A DNA stretch of 64,000 nt, from the NCBI RefSeq assembly GCF_029892965.1, contig NZ_JARXWN010000005.1, positions 124,001-188,000 on the forward strand. Reading direction: 5' to 3'. Each line of letters starts with the position of its first letter. Positions within the stretch are counted from its first letter, which is position 1. Of the stretch, positions 5,267 through 15,419 are shown piece after piece. Made by a program: the position numbers and the translations under genes. The DNA comes from Dysgonomonas sp. PF1-14. GTDB taxonomy: Bacteria > Bacteroidota > Bacteroidia > Bacteroidales > Dysgonomonadaceae. The notes below the pieces were generated by a model that was given only the letters and a program-made list of their open reading frames with translations, had not been told where the DNA came from and ran no database searches.

Positions 5267-6709
5267 ATGGAAATAACACAAAAGAAGATCGAGGAGCTTG
5301 CACCCAATGCCGATGCCGCCAAAAACGGACGCGATCTTGTAAAAAAGAACAAATTTGCCAATCTTAAAATTTCAGCTGAGAAAAACCTTATCTGGGGCGA
5401 ATGTGCCGGAAGCGGAAAGAATCCCTACTTTTGTTCGGCTGATTATATCGAAGAGAATAACCCCGTATTCAGATGTAATTGTCCAAGCCGTCAATTTCCA
5501 TGCAAACATGCCATAGGTCTACTATACGCTTATGAAGCCAATAGCGGGGCATTTGCTGTAGCCGATGTGCCCGAAGATATAACATCTAAGCGTGAGAAAA
5601 TAGAGAAAAAACAGGAAAAGAAAGCACAGGAAAAAGAGACAATAAAAGAGAAAGCCGAAAAACCGAAGAAAGTAAACAAGGCCGCCTTTATAAAAAAAGC
5701 AGACACACAGCTCGCCGGAATCGAAATAGCAGGCAAAATACTAAAAGATATAGTGCAGACCGGACTGTCGTCTGTAGATGCAAAGATCAGCCGCACACTA
5801 CAGGCACAGGTGAAAGAACTGGGTAATTACTATATTAATGGTATCCAGAGGGCATTCAACGACCTGTTGCTCGAACTGGGCGAAGGAGAAAACGAAGAAT
5901 ATACACGCGTTATCGACCAAATTAACTATATTTCCGCCCTGTTGAAGAAAAGTACAGCCTACCTCAATCTGCGGAAAGAAGATCCCGAAGCCGATCCGGA
6001 AATCGATTCGGCTATAGAAGAACAAATAGGCTATGTTTGGAAACTTATAGAACTGATGCAGTACGGACTATATGAAGAAAACGGCGAACTCGTGCAATTA
6101 TCTTTCAACAGCTACGACAATCCGGCACTCAAGGAATATGTAGACGAAGGTATCTGGCTCAATCTCAAATCGGGAAAACTATACAAGACCAAGAACTACA
6201 GACCATATCGTGCTGCCAAGTATATCAAAGAGGATAATAGCAGCTTCGATGTACTCCAACTCAAAGAAATGTTTATCTATCCCGGCGACCAGAACCCGCG
6301 CGTCCGCTGGGAACCCGAAGCTGTAAAAGAACGAATAATAGAGGTAAAAGACCTCACATCTATTCTGGCGCTTGCATCGGGCAACTATGCCGATACCATA
6401 AAGTCGGTGAAGAATACTATAAAGAACCCGTTGATGGATAAAAATCCGGTTGTATTGCTTACACTGCACAAAGCCTATCTGAATGGCGATAACCTTGTGA
6501 TAGAAGATAGCTTAGGCAATAAGTTGACACTGAAAGATATCCAGGAACAGAATATATCTTCGGCTACCAACCTAAAGGCTATACTGCCTGCAAATCCACA
6601 GGGTTTTGCTCTGGCTGTGATGATGAACAACGATGTGCAGACAGGATTATTGTCAGCTCAGCCTATGTCACTTATCACCCCTGAGAAAATAATCCGACTA
6701 CTTTACTAA
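5267..6709 (+). CDS. SWIM zinc-finger protein of the MoxR/VWA cluster (YehQ-like)
   Basis: 480 residues. The SWIM motif C70-x-C72-x6-C79-x-H81 is complete and should bind zinc and mediate protein or nucleic-acid contacts. Residues 105-140 are a highly charged Lys/Glu linker, likely helical. The C-terminal ~340 residues have no domain I recognise. First gene of the cluster, 48 nt before the HEAT-repeat gene. In E. coli a SWIM protein (yehQ) also neighbours MoxR, DUF5682 and VWA genes, which is the main basis for grouping; yehQ is longer as I recall. The function is unknown. Confidence 0.75.
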   Translation: MEITQKKIEELAPNADAAKNGRDLVKKNKFANLKISAEKNLIWGECAGSGKNPYFCSADYIEENNPVFRCNCPSRQFPCKHAIGLLYAYEANSGAFAVADVPEDITSKREKIEKKQEKKAQEKETIKEKAEKPKKVNKAAFIKKADTQLAGIEIAGKILKDIVQTGLSSVDAKISRTLQAQVKELGNYYINGIQRAFNDLLLELGEGENEEYTRVIDQINYISALLKKSTAYLNLRKEDPEADPEIDSAIEEQIGYVWKLIELMQYGLYEENGELVQLSFNSYDNPALKEYVDEGIWLNLKSGKLYKTKNYRPYRAAKYIKEDNSSFDVLQLKEMFIYPGDQNPRVRWEPEAVKERIIEVKDLTSILALASGNYADTIKSVKNTIKNPLMDKNPVVLLTLHKAYLNGDNLVIEDSLGNKLTLKDIQEQNISSATNLKAILPANPQGFALAVMMNNDVQTGLLSAQPMSLITPEKIIRLLY

Positions 6710-6757
6710 TCTCAATTTTGAAATCTTGATATATTGAAATTTTGAAACAATAAAAAT

Positions 6758-8599
6758 ATGAGACTACAACCATTATACGACCTCCAACAGGAAATCAACC
6801 GCTTATTCATTGCCGGAAGTAAATTTGCAAAAGGAGACCCGCGACTACAGAAACACATACCTGTACTGACTAAATTAGGCGAGAAAGCTCCTGTATTCAA
6901 AAAACTGGCAACAGATATCGAAGACCTATTGATTACCGATTCACAACAGTCAGCAGATAAGCTGATGTCGGTATCTACTTTGCTATATTCCGTTCTGTAT
7001 ACACAAGGCGACTCAGTAGAAACCGATGTGCAAGAAAGCGAACATATCCCCAATATCCCTATCGAAGAAGTAAATACGGAATATTCTTACTTGCAGCTGA
7101 AGCCTGTAATGCAAGCGCTCACTACCAGCAATTCAGGACGGTTGGAAATACTGAAAGATGCACTCGAACGCAATGTATTCAACGATTCGCGTACCTATCA
7201 GTACCTTGATGTTGCCTTAGGCGATAAATATACCGAACTGTGCGACTATGTGGAAAAAACAATCATACCGAAAGTCGGTAAACCCATTATCCCTTTCTTG
7301 CTGCAAAACTTCAGATATGAAGACAAGACTGAGCAAACAAGACGCTTGCGCCTTCTGTACCAGTTCGGTTATCCCAAACTACAGGGGATGATAGATAAGA
7401 TCATGGCAGAATCTCTGCCTGCTCTACAAGCCGAAGCTGTTATTATTATGGCAGATGATCCGAAGAACGAAGAACTGATTATAAAACTGGCCGACGATAA
7501 GAACAAACTTGTTCGTGAAGCTGCTTACAAAGCATTAGCAAAATACGGAACACGAACCAGTCTCGAAAAGCTGAAAGACATTTATATCAATAATAAAACC
7601 AAAGGCAATCAGGCGCCGATAGTGACAGCACTAGCTTCTTCGAAGCTTCCATTTTTTTTTCAGGAAGTTTTTGATCAGGTTAGCAAGTCGTTCGAAGAGT
7701 TCATAGCCCTCAATAAAGATGAAAAAGATAAAGTGCTGGTCGATAAACTGGAGAAATTAAGTGTCGATCTCGAAGTGTTTGAAAACAAAGGTACTCCGGA
7801 GGTCTTTGACTTTCTGGCAAAAGTGCTGAAAAGCAAAGAATACAACGATCTGGTATCAGCTAAAAAGAATTTGCTGGAGAATACGGCATTCCGTGTTACA
7901 CATGCTGCTATTGGTTGTCTCAATACATTCGATAAAGCTAAAGTAATAGCATTTTATGAGCAGCATATCGACTCTATCCCTAATGTTCACTGGCGATGGC
8001 CGTTGTGGAATAACTATTTTTATACGGCAGTAGAGTATGGCTATTCCAAAGAGAAAGTATTCGATACATTCGGTACGCAATTACGGAAATCGGTTAGCAT
8101 AGGTAGCCTCTACGATGTATATACCAATGGCAGCAACTATTACTATTATAACGATAAAGATGTAGAAGTCTTTACTGACAAGATTGATCCGCGTTGGACA
8201 GGATTGTTATATCCTCTGTTTGAAAACCGTAAGGCAAAATGGAACTATGAATATGATCAGGCTCTACAACTGATAAATGCAATGGAGCCGCAAAGTAAGA
8301 AATTTGATGAACATCTTATTTCTCTGACTAAAACTACCATGCCGGGCGATCAGATCACAATCTTCAAATTGCTCGTTTCGCGAAAGGTGAAAGGCTGTTT
8401 TGAAACCATATATTCTACTATCGAGCGATTCCCTAAAAATACATATTACTATGCGCTCAACAGATTGAAGAATATTGGTTTCTGGGCACAATTTCCGAAA
8501 GAATATGCAGCTAAATTCCGCCAATTATACGAAAAGAATAAGCTTGAAGTATATAACGATATAGCTGATGAAATAGAAACATCAACCCTAAATTCATAA
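6758..8599 (+). CDS. HEAT-repeat scaffold protein of the MoxR/VWA cluster
   Basis: 613 residues, cytosolic. Residues about 215-285 read as HEAT-like helical pairs (AEAVIIMADDP, REAAYKALAKYG), which suggests a solenoid scaffold. The N-terminal ~200 residues and the Tyr-rich C-terminus (NGSNYYYYNDKD near 460) are unassigned. It lies 17 nt before the MoxR gene, so it is probably co-translated. By context it may present substrates to, or bridge, the AAA+ and VWA proteins. No enzymatic motif is visible. Confidence 0.65.
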   Translation: MRLQPLYDLQQEINRLFIAGSKFAKGDPRLQKHIPVLTKLGEKAPVFKKLATDIEDLLITDSQQSADKLMSVSTLLYSVLYTQGDSVETDVQESEHIPNIPIEEVNTEYSYLQLKPVMQALTTSNSGRLEILKDALERNVFNDSRTYQYLDVALGDKYTELCDYVEKTIIPKVGKPIIPFLLQNFRYEDKTEQTRRLRLLYQFGYPKLQGMIDKIMAESLPALQAEAVIIMADDPKNEELIIKLADDKNKLVREAAYKALAKYGTRTSLEKLKDIYINNKTKGNQAPIVTALASSKLPFFFQEVFDQVSKSFEEFIALNKDEKDKVLVDKLEKLSVDLEVFENKGTPEVFDFLAKVLKSKEYNDLVSAKKNLLENTAFRVTHAAIGCLNTFDKAKVIAFYEQHIDSIPNVHWRWPLWNNYFYTAVEYGYSKEKVFDTFGTQLRKSVSIGSLYDVYTNGSNYYYYNDKDVEVFTDKIDPRWTGLLYPLFENRKAKWNYEYDQALQLINAMEPQSKKFDEHLISLTKTTMPGDQITIFKLLVSRKVKGCFETIYSTIERFPKNTYYYALNRLKNIGFWAQFPKEYAAKFRQLYEKNKLEVYNDIADEIETSTLNS

Positions 8600-8616
8600 C
8601 TCATAACCAACATACA

Positions 8617-9714
8617 ATGGCAGAAAAAAAAGAAGACGTATTGCGGCTACCCGCCGAACTACTATACGCACACGAACTAGAAGCACTGAAAGAAGAAGAT
8701 AAAAAAGAAGAAAAGCCGGCCGGATGGCAACTATCGCCCAAAGCTGTATTGAAATTCGTTATCGGCGGAAAAGCTAATGGCGTGGACATAAGACCTAAAT
8801 ACATAGGGCACGACCGTCTTGTAGAAATAGCTATTGCAACCCTGCTGACCGACCGTTCTCTTTTGCTGATCGGTGAACCGGGAACAGCAAAATCGTGGCT
8901 GTCCGAAAACCTTACGGCTGCTATCTGCGGCGATTCGGCAAAAGTAATACAAGGTACGGCAGGAACAAGCGAAGAGCATATCCGTTATTCGTGGAATTAT
9001 GCCATGCTGTTAGCTAATGGACCGTCAAACGAAGCTTTAATAAAAAGCCCTATCTACCGCGCAATGGAAACAGGATCGGTAGCTCGCTTCGAGGAAATAT
9101 CGCGTTGTGCATCCGAAGTACAGGATGCTTTGATCTCCATTATGTCCGAAAAAACGATTGCCATACCCGAACTCGGAAAAGAACTGCCTGCCCAACGCGG
9201 ATTCTCTATTATAGCAACTGCAAATACACGCGACAGGGGAGTAAATGATATGTCGTCGGCTCTGAAACGCCGTTTCAATATTATTGTACTGCCTGCTCCT
9301 GCAAATCTTGAAACCGAAGTTTCCATCGTAACGAAACGTGTTGCCGAAATATCGAGCAACTATCGACTGAAAGCCAACTTGCCGACAAACGAAGCTGTAG
9401 AAAAGATTGTTACCATCTTCCGCGAACTTCGTCAGGGCATGACGCTCGACGAAAAGCAAAAACTGAAATCGCCAAGTGGGGTGATTTCTACAGCCGAAGC
9501 CATTTCTCTTATCACCAACAGTATGGCACTAGCTGCCAGTTTTGGCAACGGAACCATCACCGACGAAGATATGGCTGCCGGATTGCAAGGTGCTGTTGTA
9601 AAAGACGAAGATAAGGACAAACTAGTATGGAAGGAATACCTCGAAAACGTGATGAAAAAACGCGGGGCTTCGTGGCGCGGATTATACAATACGTGCAGTG
9701 ATATAAACGGATGA
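8617..9714 (+). CDS. MoxR-family AAA+ ATPase (YehL-like)
   Basis: A 365-residue ATPase. Walker A is GEPGTAKS (86-93). The Walker B region reads ARFEEIS (156-162), with Glu-Glu instead of the usual Asp-Glu. Sensor 1 is ATANTRDRG (Asn203), and candidate arginine fingers are Arg218/219 in SSALKRRFN. MoxR proteins act with VWA partners as chaperones or cofactor-insertion machines; the VWA gene here is at 13814. A charged tail of about 35 residues precedes the AAA core. It lies 4 nt before the lipoprotein gene, so translational coupling is likely. Family call firm; client unknown. Confidence 0.9.
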   Translation: MAEKKEDVLRLPAELLYAHELEALKEEDKKEEKPAGWQLSPKAVLKFVIGGKANGVDIRPKYIGHDRLVEIAIATLLTDRSLLLIGEPGTAKSWLSENLTAAICGDSAKVIQGTAGTSEEHIRYSWNYAMLLANGPSNEALIKSPIYRAMETGSVARFEEISRCASEVQDALISIMSEKTIAIPELGKELPAQRGFSIIATANTRDRGVNDMSSALKRRFNIIVLPAPANLETEVSIVTKRVAEISSNYRLKANLPTNEAVEKIVTIFRELRQGMTLDEKQKLKSPSGVISTAEAISLITNSMALAASFGNGTITDEDMAAGLQGAVVKDEDKDKLVWKEYLENVMKKRGASWRGLYNTCSDING

Positions 9715-9718
9715 TAGA

Positions 9719-10237
9719 ATGAGAAAAATATTTGTAATTCTGGCAATAGGTATAGTCTCTATAGCTTGCAATAACTCACAAAAACCTGTGACAAGGCAAG
9801 TCGGTGACGAAACTGTATCCCGGATAAGCGAAGAAGATAAAGAAATGAATGAAGCAATGTCAAAAGCTGTTTCTTCATTCGATCAATTTAAGAAAACATT
9901 TAAGGACAACAAGGAAAACGGGAATTCTCATTTTTTCTCAATAAAGATTGGATTTCCTTCTGAGGTATCAGGAAAAGAACATATGTGGGTTGGCAATCTG
10001 CAATTAAACGATGATACGTTTACCGGAATTCTGGACAATGAACCTTTAGATAAAAATATAGGATATAAATACGGAGATACGGTAATTGTAGATCCACAGC
10101 AAGTCAGCGATTGGTTGTATATAGATGCTCAGACTGGTTTAACTCATGGTGGTTATACCTTTAAAGTAATACGTAACAGAATGTCGCCCGAAGAAAGAGC
10201 TGCATTCGATGCTGAATCAGGACTTAAGTTTGAATAA
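9719..10237 (+). CDS. DUF2314 lipoprotein inside the MoxR/VWA cluster
   Basis: 172 residues with a lipoprotein signal (hydrophobic 4-15, lipobox VSIAC, Cys17), so membrane-anchored. The body matches the DUF2314 pattern: FSIKIGFPS, then EHMWV, then a GILDNEP segment, YGDTVIV, SDWLYIDA, GGYTFKV and a final MSPEER. The function of DUF2314 is not established. Being exported, it cannot directly contact the cytosolic MoxR/VWA proteins unless signalling crosses the membrane. It starts 4 nt after moxR and ends 8 nt before the DUF5682 gene, in the heart of the operon. Confidence 0.75.
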   Translation: MRKIFVILAIGIVSIACNNSQKPVTRQVGDETVSRISEEDKEMNEAMSKAVSSFDQFKKTFKDNKENGNSHFFSIKIGFPSEVSGKEHMWVGNLQLNDDTFTGILDNEPLDKNIGYKYGDTVIVDPQQVSDWLYIDAQTGLTHGGYTFKVIRNRMSPEERAAFDAESGLKFE

Positions 10238-10245
10238 TAGAGAGA

Positions 10246-12537
10246 ATGACTGATAAACTAAATATATTCGGTGTACGCCATCTTTCGCCGGGAGCATCCT
10301 ATCATCTGATACAATATCTTGAAGAAAAGAACCCCAAGTGTATCCTGATAGAAGGCCCTTCGGACGCTACAGCTATAATAAGCCATATAGCGCAGAAAGA
10401 TGTTAAACCACCTATCGCCTTACTGGCATATACAACCGAACTACCCATCGAGACGGTACTCTATCCGTTTGCAGCCTATTCTCCCGAATATCAGGCTATC
10501 TGTTGGGGAGTGAAGAAAAAGCTCGATGTGCGCTTTATCGACCTGCCTGCCGATATTATGCTCAAGTTGCGGCAGGAGAGGGGCAAGGAAGCAAACGAAG
10601 CCGCCGGAGAATTCTATATGTTCCACAACGGATTGTACGATAGAGTAGCCCGACAGTATAATGAAGATAACTATGAAAGTTACTGGGAGCGCAATTTCGA
10701 GCATAATCTGAATGCCGGAACATTCCGCGAGGGACTTGGTTTTCAATCGTCCCAGATAAGGGATATGGTTGTAGACAAGGAATACGAAGCCGTACCTTAC
10801 GATTTTTCGTACAATCTGATACGTGAAGCGCACATGCGCAGGGAGATACAAAAAGCTATCGCCGAAGGCTTCAAGCCGGAAGAAATTGTTATCATTGTCG
10901 GAGCATACCACATGGCGGGTATTAATCTCGAATTGCCGTCTATGTCGGACAGCGAACTGAATAAGATACCGCGTGCTACATCTCAGCTAACACTGATGCC
11001 ATATTCGTATCTGAGACTAAGCAGCCGTACAGGCTACGGGGCAGGCAACAATGCACCCTACTATTTTGAGCTAATGTGGAAAGCTATACAAAAAGATAAG
11101 CTCAGCGATCTGCCTGCCGTATATCTGTCTAAAGTGGCAAAGGTATTGCGCGACAGGGGGAACAATGCTTCTTCGGCAAGTGTGATAGAAGCCGTAAGGC
11201 TGGCAAATGCACTCACATCTATGCGCTCGGGCTCTATGCCTGTACTCAAAGACCTGCACGATGCGGTGATAACATGTTTCGGAGGAGGAGAATTGTCTCC
11301 TGTAGCCGAAGCTATTAATATGATCGACATCGGTACAGCTATCGGTAGTCTGCCCGAAGGGGTGAGCCAGACACCCGTACAGGAAGATATGAATCAGGAA
11401 TTGAAACGCCTGAAACTCACAAATTATAAATCAGCAGTAGCACAAGATCTTACACTCGATTTGCGCGAAAACCTGAAAGTAAAGACACAGGAAGCAGCTT
11501 TTATCGATCTGAACCGTTCTACATTCCTTCACAGGCTCAAGGTGCTTGGTATACACTTTGCCGAACAGGTTCGTGTATCACAGGATAGTGCTACATGGGC
11601 AGAGAAGTGGGTGTTGCATTGGACTCCGGAAGTGGAAATAGAGATTGTGGAAGCCAATCTGAAAGGCGAAACAGTAGAAATAGCCGCCGCTTACGAACTC
11701 AAAGAACAGCTCAATGAATGTACCGATGTATCTCTGGCCGCTAAAATCATACGGTTAGCCTGTGAATGTCATCTCACTAGTATATTCGATAACGCACTAA
11801 GTACATTGCAACGCCTGTTGGTCGATTCCAATAACTTTAAGGAAACGGCGAATGCAGCACACGAGTTGTCGGTACTTATACAATATGGCGACCTGCGCCA
11901 GTTCAATCTGGCACCACTGATTCCTATATTGCAACAGTTGTTTTTGCGCTCGTCGCTACTGCTTATCGAATCTTCTTCGTGCGACGACAAGGCCGCAACA
12001 AGTATTGTGCAGGCAATAAATATAATGGAATTGATATCGCAGCAGCAATACGATACGGTCGATGTGGAAACATGGCAAAAAGAGCTACACAAACTGGCTT
12101 GGCGCGACGATCTGAACACCAAGCTTTCGGGCGTGGCATTCTCTATCCTATTGGAACATAATCTGGCTACAGAAGACGATTGTGCAAAAGAAGTATCGCG
12201 ACGCCTGTCGCCGGGTGTGCCTGCCGATTTAGGTGCGGGATGGTTTGAGGGGCTGTCGGGGCGTAACCGTTATGCTTTACTGTCACGCGTACCGCTTTGG
12301 CGCGAACTGGATAAGTATGTGGAACAACTTGACGATGACGAGTTTTTCCGTTCAGTGGTATTTCTGCGGCGGGCTTTTGGTGATTTCGAGCCGAATCAGA
12401 AGAACAGTATTGCCGAATTGTTAGGTGACATCTGGGGTACAGGAGCAGAAAATACAGCCGAAATATTACAGGCTGAACTTACGGAGACAGAGACGGAAAA
12501 GCTGGATGAATTGAATGATTTCGATTTTGAGTTTTAA
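10246..12537 (+). CDS. DUF5682 family protein (YehM-like)
   Basis: 763 residues, cytosolic. The N-terminus carries FGVRHLSPGAS (His12), CILIEGPSDA (Glu36), LIREAHMRRE (193-194 Arg-Glu) and IIVGAYHMAG (His222), the conserved pattern of DUF5682. These resemble the spaced His/Glu motifs of the TIKI/TraB/EreA fold, so an N-terminal hydrolase-like domain of ~230 residues is plausible (inference). The C-terminal ~400 residues are helical and acidic, ending in an Asp/Glu tail. In E. coli, yehM of similar length sits beside the MoxR gene yehL. It lies 8 nt after the lipoprotein gene. Confidence 0.75.
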   Translation: MTDKLNIFGVRHLSPGASYHLIQYLEEKNPKCILIEGPSDATAIISHIAQKDVKPPIALLAYTTELPIETVLYPFAAYSPEYQAICWGVKKKLDVRFIDLPADIMLKLRQERGKEANEAAGEFYMFHNGLYDRVARQYNEDNYESYWERNFEHNLNAGTFREGLGFQSSQIRDMVVDKEYEAVPYDFSYNLIREAHMRREIQKAIAEGFKPEEIVIIVGAYHMAGINLELPSMSDSELNKIPRATSQLTLMPYSYLRLSSRTGYGAGNNAPYYFELMWKAIQKDKLSDLPAVYLSKVAKVLRDRGNNASSASVIEAVRLANALTSMRSGSMPVLKDLHDAVITCFGGGELSPVAEAINMIDIGTAIGSLPEGVSQTPVQEDMNQELKRLKLTNYKSAVAQDLTLDLRENLKVKTQEAAFIDLNRSTFLHRLKVLGIHFAEQVRVSQDSATWAEKWVLHWTPEVEIEIVEANLKGETVEIAAAYELKEQLNECTDVSLAAKIIRLACECHLTSIFDNALSTLQRLLVDSNNFKETANAAHELSVLIQYGDLRQFNLAPLIPILQQLFLRSSLLLIESSSCDDKAATSIVQAINIMELISQQQYDTVDVETWQKELHKLAWRDDLNTKLSGVAFSILLEHNLATEDDCAKEVSRRLSPGVPADLGAGWFEGLSGRNRYALLSRVPLWRELDKYVEQLDDDEFFRSVVFLRRAFGDFEPNQKNSIAELLGDIWGTGAENTAEILQAELTETETEKLDELNDFDFEF

Positions 12538-12542
12538 GGAAC

Positions 12543-12725
12543 ATGAAACAGTAAAAAATTATAGCAGGTATATTCTTCGCCTTCGTAGCATTAAACTTAC
12601 TTTTTCAGGCTTTTGGAAGTACAGTTCCCGAATCGTATGAAAAATTAGCAACGTTTTTGATTGCCTGAGGACTGTCTTTTTGTTTTTTTGCGTAGTGTCT
12701 ACAAAAAGAAATAACGAATAGAGTT
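12543..12725 (+). pseudogene. Decayed small membrane-protein gene
   Basis: Starting 5 nt after the DUF5682 stop, one frame reads MKQ-stop-KIIAGIFFAFVALNLL, continues through AFGSTVPESYEKLATFLIA, then stop-GLSFCFFA-stop-CLQKEITN. Three stops (TAA at 12552, TGA at 12666, TAG at 12693) interrupt two otherwise good hydrophobic segments with charged flanks. Each stop is one base from a sense codon. This looks like a former ~60-residue two-helix membrane protein of the operon. The rest of the 300-nt gap up to 12838 is AT-rich and may hold the promoter of the next gene. Confidence 0.45.
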
Positions 12726-12837
12726 CTACTCATATTTTATTTTTATATCTTTATGATACACATGAGTGATATAGAACAAGTATAAATGTAAATCAGAGTT
12801 ACAACTTATCCAATCAGTAGATAAAAAGATAATCATC

Positions 12838-13809
12838 ATGAAAAACGAACTGATTTATAATAGCTTTCTGGAAGAAATAACACGCAAGATTTCACAAAAA
12901 ACAGTTGTAGTAGATCTTCTTGCAGATATACTACATATAGAAAAGGGTGCTGTGCATAAGAGAATGAAAGGAGAGATTCCATTTACTTTTTCGGAGGCAA
13001 TGACCATTTCCAGATATTTAGGCATTTCTTTGGATAATATGGAAATGATCAGCCAGGAAGAGTCTCATTCATTTAAATTGAAACTAATAGAATATATTAA
13101 TCCTGCCGAATCGGATTTTTCGTTACTCGAAGAGATGACAGCTATACTGAAAACATTCACAAATGTTCCGAATCCCGAGGCTGGTGAAATTACCAATATA
13201 TTACCCCAACCACTGTACGTTAATCGTGAACATATATCCAAGTTTTATCTGTTCAAATGGAAGTATAGCTCGCAAAAAAAGCAGGGAGGGATTCGTTATA
13301 ATGATATAGTTATCTCAAATAAGCTAAAAAAAGCCCGCAAAGAATATGTAAAATGGGCAAGGCTATTACACGCCGATTATATCTTCGATCGTTTACTTTT
13401 TCATTATCTGGTTACCGATATCAAGTATTTTTATCAGGTCGGACGGATTACTAAAGAAGACGTCCTGCTTATAAAACAGGATGTTGTAGATATTCTGGAT
13501 GAAATAGATGAATTAACGAACACCGGAAAATTTAACGAAACCGGAAAAGAGGTGAATATCTATATTTCGAACGTAAATGTAGATACTAATTATATTTACA
13601 TTTCCACTCCTCATTATCAGTTAACTATAATAAAAGCATTTTTACTCAATGGAGTTGCATCTACCGACAAAACAACAGTTGAAGAGGTAAAACGTTGGAT
13701 ACAAACAAAGAAACAGCAATCTACATTGATTACAAAATGTAATGAAAGAGACAGGGTTAACTTTTTGAAAGAACAATATAATATTGTGGAAAGTTTAGCA
13801 CAACTTTAA
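12838..13809 (+). CDS. Helix-turn-helix regulator-like protein
   Basis: 323 residues. Residues about 8-70 form an XRE-like DNA-binding domain (DLLADILHIEKGAVHKRMKG followed by SEAMTISRYLGIS). The remaining ~250 residues are helical with several Tyr/Lys-rich stretches and no domain I know. This arrangement is common in Bacteroidetes regulators of unknown signal. By eye the gene is more AT-rich than the cluster around it, it follows a 300-nt gap with a pseudogene, and it ends 4 nt before the VWA gene. It therefore either regulates the operon or was inserted into it. Confidence 0.6.
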   Translation: MKNELIYNSFLEEITRKISQKTVVVDLLADILHIEKGAVHKRMKGEIPFTFSEAMTISRYLGISLDNMEMISQEESHSFKLKLIEYINPAESDFSLLEEMTAILKTFTNVPNPEAGEITNILPQPLYVNREHISKFYLFKWKYSSQKKQGGIRYNDIVISNKLKKARKEYVKWARLLHADYIFDRLLFHYLVTDIKYFYQVGRITKEDVLLIKQDVVDILDEIDELTNTGKFNETGKEVNIYISNVNVDTNYIYISTPHYQLTIIKAFLLNGVASTDKTTVEEVKRWIQTKKQQSTLITKCNERDRVNFLKEQYNIVESLAQL

Positions 13810-13813
13810 TTAA

Positions 13814-14980
13814 ATGGAGCAAATAGAAAAAAAACAAAATATGACCCGTTGGCGCCTCATTCTTGGCGAAGATACACGCGCCTTGAGTAATGTGGGGCTA
13901 AGTGAACAGGAATCGATAATGGATGCCGCACTGGCTGCTATATATGACGGAGATTCGTCGCAGGGTGGGGGATCGGGTAAACAAGGAGGCAAAGGCCGTT
14001 CGATGCCCAATCTAGCTAAATGGCTTACTGACGTACGAACTTTCTTTCCGCAGGATGTGGTTAGCGTAATTCAATCAGATGCCATAGAACGCAAAGGTTT
14101 GACAAAATTACTATTCGAGCCGGAGACACTGAAAAATGTAAAGCCTGACATTTCGATGGTAGGCACACTGATGGCACTGAAAGGGCAGATACCAGAGAAA
14201 TCTAAAGATACAGCCCGCGAACTGGTAAGAAGCGTGGTGGATGAAATAATGAAGCGGATGGAGCAAGACCTCCGCCGTGCTGTTACAGGCGCATTGAATA
14301 AGAAAGCACACTCACCGATAGCGAATTTCGCTTCTACGGACTGGAAGCGGACTATCAATCGTAATCTCAAAAATTACGATACCAAGACAAAGCGTCTAAT
14401 CCCTGAAAAATTCTATTTCTTTGAACGTACTCAAAAGCAAAAAAACTGGACAGTGATACTCGATATAGACCAAAGCGGTTCTATGGCCGATTCTATCATC
14501 TACTCTTCGGTGATGGGTTCTATATTCGCCAGTATGCCTGCCTTAGACACGCATGTGGTTGCCTTCGATACAGAGATAACCGACCTTACCGAACTATGCC
14601 GCCAAGACCCTGTAGATATGCTTTTCGGTGTACAATTGGGTGGAGGTACGGATATAAATAAATCTGTAGCTTATTGTCAGGACTTGATAGAGAATCCCCG
14701 TAAAACAATGTTTATCCTCATTTCTGACCTCTACGAAGGTGGTGTTCGTAAGGGCTTATTACGCCGTTTGTCCGAAATGCACGAGGAAGGTGTTAAAGTT
14801 ATTACACTTTTAGCACTTTCCGATAGTGGGAAACCGGATTATGATGTAAATTTGGGGAAGGAAATCAGCAAACTGGGTATTGCCTGCTTTGCCTGTACCC
14901 CCGATCGTTTGCCCGATCTGGTTGCAGCAGCACTGAAAGGACAAGACTTACAGCAGTTTGGACAAAAAGACAAAGTGTAA
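13814..14980 (+). CDS. VWA-domain protein, MoxR partner (YehP-like)
   Basis: 388 residues. The C-terminal von Willebrand A domain (about 208-380) has an intact metal-ion-dependent adhesion site: D219-Q-S-G-S223, Thr279 in GGGTD and Asp305 in LISDLYEGG. Residues 45-65 are a Gly/Ser-rich linker. The N-terminal half is helical and probably binds the MoxR partner. MoxR-VWA pairs such as RavA-ViaA are established, and here the partner would be the AAA+ protein at 8617. Four nt follow the HTH gene. Length matches E. coli YehP. Confidence 0.88.
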   Translation: MEQIEKKQNMTRWRLILGEDTRALSNVGLSEQESIMDAALAAIYDGDSSQGGGSGKQGGKGRSMPNLAKWLTDVRTFFPQDVVSVIQSDAIERKGLTKLLFEPETLKNVKPDISMVGTLMALKGQIPEKSKDTARELVRSVVDEIMKRMEQDLRRAVTGALNKKAHSPIANFASTDWKRTINRNLKNYDTKTKRLIPEKFYFFERTQKQKNWTVILDIDQSGSMADSIIYSSVMGSIFASMPALDTHVVAFDTEITDLTELCRQDPVDMLFGVQLGGGTDINKSVAYCQDLIENPRKTMFILISDLYEGGVRKGLLRRLSEMHEEGVKVITLLALSDSGKPDYDVNLGKEISKLGIACFACTPDRLPDLVAAALKGQDLQQFGQKDKV

Positions 14981-15047
14981 ATTAATTATGAATTAAGAAT
15001 TATATATAAGTAATGATTTTTTTGATTCTTAAATTATAAAATCAACT

Positions 15048-15419
15048 ATGGACTACGAGTATAACAAACAATATACAGAAAAAAGCAATACCGGATTTTG
15101 GGTGATAGCTGTACTAACTATCGCTATCTGCGGATATATGGCATACGCACACTTTACCCAATCTATTTATTCCGGCACGGTAGCTGTAGACACTTATGTG
15201 CAGGGAATAGGCATAGAGCAGACCGAATACAACCACATGAATTCCAGTGGGCGGGCTGTTGTCAATTTTATATTCGGTACCATATTTTCCGTCCTGCTTA
15301 TTGGAGGAATAATCTCTATATTGAAGAAAAGCCTCAAAATACTGGCTATCTGTTTTTTTTCGTCACTTATATTCAGCCTCGTTATATTTGTAATAAACGA
15401 GGTGATGCAATATAGCTAA
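15048..15419 (+). CDS. Small membrane protein, three hydrophobic segments
   Basis: 123 residues with hydrophobic segments at about 17-36, 71-90 and 95-117 and a polar extracytoplasmic loop between the first two. There is no known family. It lies 67 nt after the VWA gene and stops 3 nt before the convergent hemN end, so it is probably the last gene of the cluster. It could be a membrane anchor for the VWA/MoxR machinery, but nothing in the sequence proves this. No clear terminator separates it from hemN. Confidence 0.55.
   Translation: MDYEYNKQYTEKSNTGFWVIAVLTIAICGYMAYAHFTQSIYSGTVAVDTYVQGIGIEQTEYNHMNSSGRAVVNFIFGTIFSVLLIGGIISILKKSLKILAICFFSSLIFSLVIFVINEVMQYS

Follow-up and report, generated by a model that had tools for sequence, protein, structure and literature searches.

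A five-gene MoxR–VWA cassette with a DUF5682 protein in Dysgonomonas: a widespread set akin to the Escherichia coli yeh genes and a candidate AAA+ machine

A 64,000-nucleotide (nt) stretch of the genome of Dysgonomonas sp. PF1-14 (contig NZ_JARXWN010000005.1, positions 124,001 to 188,000; hereafter the window) carries, at positions 5267–14980, a cassette of five core genes encoding a SWIM zinc-finger protein, a HEAT-repeat protein, a MoxR AAA+ ATPase, a DUF5682 protein, and a von Willebrand factor A (VWA) protein. These five families form one set, as shown by synteny, by genome-wide co-occurrence of unlinked genes, and by an open frame in which DUF5682 and VWA are fused. With moderate confidence, we read the five genes as encoding a single MoxR–VWA-type AAA+ machine of the YehL subfamily that controls a metal-dependent DUF5682 enzyme. 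The fixing of five parts, their unlinked co-occurrence, and a predicted metal site in DUF5682 recast what had been 'four y-genes' of E. coli as a complex that can be tested at named residues. The core genes are as follows:

5267..6709, + strand: SWIM protein, 480 residues (Pfam SWIM 23.7 bits, cut-off 19.6)
6758..8599, + strand: HEAT-repeat protein, 613 residues (Pfam HEAT_2 42.9 bits, cut-off 27.7)
8617..9714, + strand: YehL-type MoxR AAA+ ATPase, 365 residues (AAA_5 127 bits; AAA_3 28.2 bits, cut-off 27)
10246..12537, + strand: DUF5682 protein of the YehM family, 763 residues (Pfam 490 bits)
13814..14980, + strand: CoxE-type VWA protein of the YehP family, 388 residues (VWA_CoxE 158.9 bits, cut-off 26.4)

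All five core frames are open. Together with three non-core genes, described below, they make up the eight genes of 5267–15419, all on the + strand and separated, from 5′ to 3′, by 48, 17, 4, 8, 300, 4, and 67 nt. The initial annotation had listed SWIM, HEAT, MoxR, DUF5682, VWA, and small membrane or lipid-type genes on one strand, mostly 4–48 nt apart; reading frames and Pfam matches confirm the list, and the spacing agrees with the gaps given here.

Composition and linkage of the set were established in a MoxR-anchored survey of 80 named loci, the best 80 of at least 589 candidates by MoxR match and dominated by near relatives. The loci were scored with purpose-built hidden Markov models, with open reading frames (ORFs) at locus edges taken as open-ended and partial matches counted as present. 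DUF5682 was found in 78 loci, VWA in 72, HEAT or DUF5691 in 70, and SWIM in 68; all five were present in 63 of the 80, or in 60 when overlapping ORFs were also removed. The set is spread over many phyla. Its commonest order, SWIM–HEAT/DUF5691–MoxR–DUF5682–VWA, occurs in 55 of the 80 loci, and the six commonest neighbour pairs have median gaps between −4 and 36 nt. In the Paenibacillus locus L053, DUF5682 and VWA share a single open frame of 1187 residues (11005–14568), in a locus with no SWIM or HEAT match.

Co-occurrence was also followed across 296 Bacteroidota genomes, in a survey that covered DUF5682, MoxR, VWA, SWIM, and DUF5691 and left HEAT out (thresholds of E ≤ 1e-50 for MoxR and VWA and E ≤ 1e-15 for SWIM). 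DUF5682, YehL-type MoxR, and the cassette-type VWA each occur in 7 of the 296 genomes, and these are the identical seven, from seven genera. The chance of such an identical spread is 1 in C(296,7), or about 3e-14 per pair, if kinship is ignored; three of the seven genomes share family code f7. SWIM was found in six of the seven and in none of the other genomes. DUF5691 is likewise present in six, although in genome G162 it scores under the curated cut-off; the remaining one, which is the window's genome, has HEAT. Beyond the seven, G014 alone gave a DUF5691 match, a weak one that also stays under the cut-off. The five genes of G037 lie at five places on four contigs and those of G178 at four places, so that the co-occurrence reflects more than linkage. 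An in-frame stop was reported within the MoxR match of G162 and the VWA match of G037, yet frames of 355 and 400 residues are open there. The absence of DUF5682 beside other MoxR genes was checked on E. coli RavA alone and through the single DUF5682 gene of the window's genome. A survey of this kind had been proposed with the initial annotation, and the set came through it strongly.

In E. coli K-12, the genes yehI (DUF4132), yehK, yehL, yehM, yehP, and yehQ follow one another on one strand. They share with the window a YehL MoxR (39% identity), a YehM DUF5682, a CoxE-like VWA in YehP (34%), and a Pfam SWIM domain in YehQ; unlike the window, they have another gene order and a large DUF4132 partner, YehI, instead of HEAT. 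Neither YehQ against the SWIM-protein profile nor YehI against the HEAT profile gave a useful match. Of 5426 complete E. coli genomes, 5301 have matches to yehL–Q, with a coverage of 80% or more in 5162, and 5320 of the 5322 places are chromosomal. Kinship with E. coli yehL/M/P/Q as one multi-protein system, claimed in the initial annotation, is supported.

Other clusters show that one slot of the set is filled by HEAT, by DUF5691, or, in yeh-type clusters, by DUF4132. Clusters of the DUF5691 type (in Deinococcus, Chitinophaga, Hymenobacter, and others) have the window's order and matching MoxR, DUF5682, VWA, and SWIM proteins, with DUF5691 in the HEAT slot. A Deinococcus plasmid reads SWIM–DUF5691–AAA–small ORF–DUF5682–VWA; a Hymenobacter plasmid has SWIM–DUF5691–AAA–small ORF, DUF5682 in three pieces, and no annotated VWA, its gene table being incomplete according to its makers. 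Two rhizobial plasmids carry AAA–DUF5682–DUF4132–VWA–SWIM, and on a Streptomyces plasmid a DUF4132 gene lies upstream of AAA–DUF5682. Among 14 control genomes, DUF5682 was found in E. coli and Deinobacterium, and DUF5691 in Deinobacterium only. The HEAT and DUF5691 profiles align over 120 HEAT-like columns only (hhalign probability 40, E 3e-4); because the HEAT profile matches DUF5691 weakly and YehI not usefully, the slot proteins may be unrelated. DUF4132 may itself be a solenoid. HEAT as an addition to the yeh genes is thus not supported: a HEAT or DUF5691 gene is part of the widely distributed set, and those yeh-type clusters that were examined have DUF4132 in its place.

The residues expected of an active ATPase and of a VWA metal site appear intact on alignment. 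Seven aligned MoxR proteins all share GxPGTAK, EE at the position of Walker B, N203, and RRF. In VWA, the residues of the metal-ion-dependent adhesion site (MIDAS), D219, S221, S223, T279, and D305, are invariant among 18 proteins, YehP included, in keeping with the earlier claim of an intact metal site. By sequence, the window's MoxR is placed in the YehL subfamily, nearer to YehL (246 bits) than to RavA (25 bits), these being the only two MoxR subfamilies compared. YehL is one of seven named MoxR subfamilies (PMC3893208).

Folds of the remaining parts are predicted. The SWIM protein combines a zinc finger (C70, C72, C79, H81) and a helical middle with a C-terminus predicted to form tandem OB-like folds, perhaps like those of HIN or RPA. 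When the parts are compared over 55 rows, conservation is lowest in HEAT for 1483 of 1485 pairs; this comparison excludes loci with short or absent parts and all DUF5691-type loci. Between the window and five relatives, nonsynonymous divergence (dN) is 0.21–0.49 for HEAT and 0.03–0.09 for MoxR; dN alone was used, and its ratio to synonymous divergence (dS) was dropped because dS was saturated. The first 300 residues of HEAT are more conserved than the remainder in 24 proteins, and models likewise suggest that its N-terminal half is the better conserved and that its C-terminal half varies. Tandem HEAT genes, two or three per cassette and 49%–59% identical, occur in L068, L079, and L092.

DUF5682 is predicted to consist of a TraB/Tiki-like domain of the metal-dependent hydrolase type, spanning about residues 1–234, followed by a long and mostly helical part that may form a solenoid. 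Across 42 sequences, H12, E36, G219, and H222 (window numbering) are invariant and G9 is conserved in at least 90%, giving two GxxH motifs and a glutamate; R193–E194 is also invariant. The pattern GxxH...E...GxxH is that reportedly described for TIKI/TraB by Bazan et al. in 2013. Profile matches of DUF5682 to this superfamily (TIKI/TraB/PrgY and ChaN) are weak, and a structural match was obtained by VIA-align; ChaN and EreA-type structures were not listed for DUF5682 by this method, which does not count against kinship with them. The long helical part sets DUF5682 apart from the TIKI/TraB/PrgY and ChaN superfamily.

For the order of action, the substrate, and the trigger, we infer a scheme in which a MoxR hexamer would hold the VWA protein, VWA would dock DUF5682, and the HEAT solenoid (or DUF5691/DUF4132) and the SWIM/OB protein would recognise a ligand or client. 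Recognition would be followed by ATP-driven twisting by MoxR that, via VWA, switches DUF5682 through metal loading, opening, or client feeding; the machine would then be a conditional switch or a maturation device for DUF5682 chemistry. In NorQD, metal insertion is reported to be driven by the AAA+ ring, which twists the linker of the partner VWA protein and stretches it (PMC13036017), and it is on this precedent that MoxR and VWA are proposed to act on DUF5682. The catalytic-type fold predicted for DUF5682 and the DUF5682–VWA fused frame favour an arrangement in which MoxR/VWA would remodel a client and DUF5682 would be the effector. As to physiology, a conditional stress function is our guess. 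If the scheme is true, AAA+/VWA control extends to a TraB/Tiki-type domain, a superfamily that includes proteins clipping Wnt ligands in animals (PMC12329661).

Several observations weigh against the reading of the set as one machine around a TraB/Tiki-type enzyme. Seventeen of the 80 loci are incomplete; in 11 of these the cause is taken to be that the locus ends close by, but five are incomplete despite enough flank and one, L031, is doubtful, having 5.5 kb of other genes past MoxR. Of the five, L053, L057, and L093 lack SWIM and HEAT, L061 lacks SWIM, HEAT, and VWA, and L105 lacks SWIM and has no DUF5682 in the 2.8 kb remaining past MoxR. Among the seven Bacteroidota genomes, G162 gave no SWIM match at E ≤ 1e-15. 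The two OB-like domains range from neutral to acidic in charge, with a median net value of −3 each (whole domain, 40 proteins), which speaks against simple nucleic-acid binding. For DUF5682, the match of the window's protein to the TraB model reaches E 0.11 only, neither Foldseek alone nor a profile search of the PDB gave a match with E < 0.001, and searching the PDB with the sequence of E. coli YbaP was of no help. Chain 7w5z_E is here assumed to be the TraB-family subunit that PMC10060162 names for the complex.

A tentative alternative is a widespread and hitherto undescribed bacterial machine for signalling or immunity. A rapidly evolving solenoid would sense a ligand together with the SWIM/tandem-OB protein, and MoxR–VWA would license a TraB/Tiki-fold metallohydrolase; at least three slot subtypes (HEAT, DUF5691, DUF4132) would then exist, one of them nearly universal in E. 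coli. An anti-phage or anti-plasmid conflict system, in which HEAT and SWIM/OB sense the invader and MoxR–VWA licenses DUF5682 as a toxic effector, we consider unlikely. The rapid evolution of HEAT and its two or three tandem copies in three loci (49%–59% identity) would fit such a system, as would mobility and internal gene exchange: 8 of 25 Dysgonomonas genomes carry the cassette, its sites differ (one of six readable other copies shares the window's site, which is empty in G300), copies are found on plasmids, and the extra genes within the operon vary among species, one of them encoding a PD-(D/E)XK nuclease. A general likeness in the logic of MoxR, vWA, and a further component is shared with the vWA–MoxR ternary conflict systems (eLife 2020, PMC7159879). 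The window's MoxR, however, scores 25.9 bits against their bpMoxR model, below the cut-off of 27; VMAP, iSTAND, and FtsH third components had no Pfam match at E 0.1 in a library that may not contain all these models; and SWIM, YehL, and DUF5682 do not occur as words in the main text of that paper. Near-universality on the E. coli chromosome, genes dispersed yet retained in G037 and G178 (in our judgement unusual for defence), and ordinary metabolic, transport, and regulatory flanks among the genes scanned with Pfam fit a resident function instead. Phage records contributed one match in 50,697, to an UNVERIFIED record, and viral contigs no confirmed relative. A defence island was rejected: core matches to PADLOC are weak (mad8 17 bits for MoxR, DpdE 15 bits for SWIM), and ten further proteins (three of G307, four flank genes, and three inserts; none from the flanks of the window's cassette) gave a single match, that of a flank gene near L023 to a dGTPase model.

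Equally doubtful is a device that, after the manner of CoxDE, NorQD, or RavA–ViaA, matures a metalloenzyme or a respiratory complex whose genes lie elsewhere. The VWA is of the CoxE family, as in the CoxD–CoxE maturation system, MoxR–VWA pairs have precedents in maturation (PMC3893208, PMC13036017), and yehM is among the genes mutated in copper-selected E. coli lines (PMC12409786). That copper link, however, is one gene among many, the set occurs in only 7 of 296 Bacteroidota genomes, and three additional conserved parts are left unexplained. The window genes scanned on either side, four upstream and three downstream, include no CO dehydrogenase genes, the flanks of relatives having been clustered and not annotated throughout. 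Blastp clusters of the non-core genes of 93 loci span at most 14 and 12 loci and are scattered on both sides, so that no additional gene keeps a constant position as a sixth member; the machine is for this reason not read as the maturase of another enzyme encoded beside it. RavA–ViaA and NorQ–NorD share with the window the MoxR AAA+/VWA pairing and the proposed mechanism; the sequence comparison covered RavA and ViaA. RavA itself has P-loop similarity only to the window's MoxR, ViaA gave no useful match, and no DUF5682, SWIM, or HEAT gene is annotated beside E. coli ravA–viaA; identity with RavA–ViaA was rejected, full-length similarity to both proteins being absent. Highly improbable, finally, are chance neighbours or a decaying mobile remnant devoid of joint function: the operon is broken by inserts and some loci are incomplete, but three families share the identical seven genomes at the odds given above, kinship ignored, and the five frames have remained open.

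For a set that matches 5301 of 5426 complete E. coli genomes, no function is described in the open-access literature searched. That search, whose scope lay outside most subscription papers, returned no mention of DUF5682, of MoxR with 'SWIM zinc finger', or of MoxR with DUF4132, and DUF5691 occurred in none of the papers listed. For yehP, the available text of PMC8940909 yields no function, the letters being part of a medium's name, nor does that of PMC3105977, where the gene is an entry in a list of predicted CRP targets; in the available text of PMC6442406, yehQ is mentioned in a strain table and given no function.

Three genes of the interval are judged not to belong to the machine:

9719..10237, + strand: DUF2314 protein, 172 residues (Pfam DUF2314 106 bits), an insert in the MoxR–DUF5682 gap
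12838..13809, + strand: BetR-like helix-turn-helix (HTH) protein, 323 residues (Pfam BetR 19.8 bits, below the cut-off of 21.6), an insert
15048..15419, + strand: small membrane-like protein, 123 residues, part of the neighbouring locus and not of the cassette

The cluster first described is real and beyond chance, but its borders and its comparison with the yeh genes call for revision, and the HTH gene at 12838–13809 had been overlooked. The DUF2314 protein, whose N-terminus looks lipoprotein-like by eye, and the HTH protein were both rejected as components, neither having a homologue at E 1e-3 among ORFs of at least 60 residues in 93 relative loci. The latter belongs to a multicopy family, with 8 further matches of 24%–34% identity in its own genome; a weak match to the PADLOC candidate PDC-M69A covers its first 89 residues. 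The 300 nt (12538–12837) that separate DUF5682 from the HTH gene hold no long ORF, with a start codon at the opening and a stop soon after; this stretch may be a remnant. The membrane gene was likewise rejected, counterpart ORFs in cassette-free flanks marking it as a gene of the neighbouring locus. An ORF of 119–123 residues stands at its place in four of the seven cassette-free radical-SAM flanks of the genus (G300, G305, G306, G307), with a sequence match in two of these (G306 42%, G307 51%); G303, G308, and G310 have no ORF there, and a homologue is also found in L024, at the same insertion site as the window. The membrane components that had been taken for additions to the machine are accordingly a flank gene and, in DUF2314, an insert seen in the window only.

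In four other species of the genus (L023–L026), related IS200-like (RAYT-like) genes occupy the MoxR–DUF5682 gap that holds DUF2314 in the window. They match Pfam Y1_Tnp above the cut-off in L023 and L024 and below it in L025; L026 has no such match and is linked by blastp only. Further extras within the operon are a TonB-like gene in L026 and a GNAT gene in L023, with none in L027, and in L024 (7904–8836) a PD-(D/E)XK nuclease (PDDEXK_13, REase-ARP) fits closely into the space between DUF5682 and VWA. In other genera, core genes are separated by inserts of at least 90 residues in 6 of 62 complete loci (L018, L058, L068, L097, L099, L108).

The window's copy of the cassette seems to have been acquired by transfer from Bacillota. 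Among the matches listed, its MoxR shares 79% identity with a protein of Paenibacillus and 56%–57% with those of Chitinophaga. In a MoxR tree, a 26-row set (support 96) unites 14 Bacillota with the window's protein, those of its genus, and those of five named Bacteroidota, and the Chitinophaga group lies in the other main set with the DUF5691 loci. The tree was a quick one with long branches, themselves a caveat to the transfer, and with warnings; 53 of its rows are Bacillota, rows shorter than 300 residues were dropped, and two longer than 420 were trimmed to their last 420 residues.

A viral origin was rejected, since viral contigs gave 36 pattern matches, none a confirmed relative, and the sole match among phage records is unverified. 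That record, L177 (MT835988.1, 166–4876), a 'Bacteriophage sp.' from human faeces, starts with MoxR–DUF5682–VWA and is probably a bacterial scaffold. Within the genus, six of the seven other copies have readable flanks, and L024 alone lies at the window's site; one further flank gene has a relative of 51% identity in L026, in a different arrangement. G300 gave no DUF5682 match, and its flank genes adjoin with only a small ORF between them, leaving an empty site. In G307, GNAT, GH32, and VIT-VWA genes (L159, 4305–9885) occupy the window's insertion site in place of the cassette.

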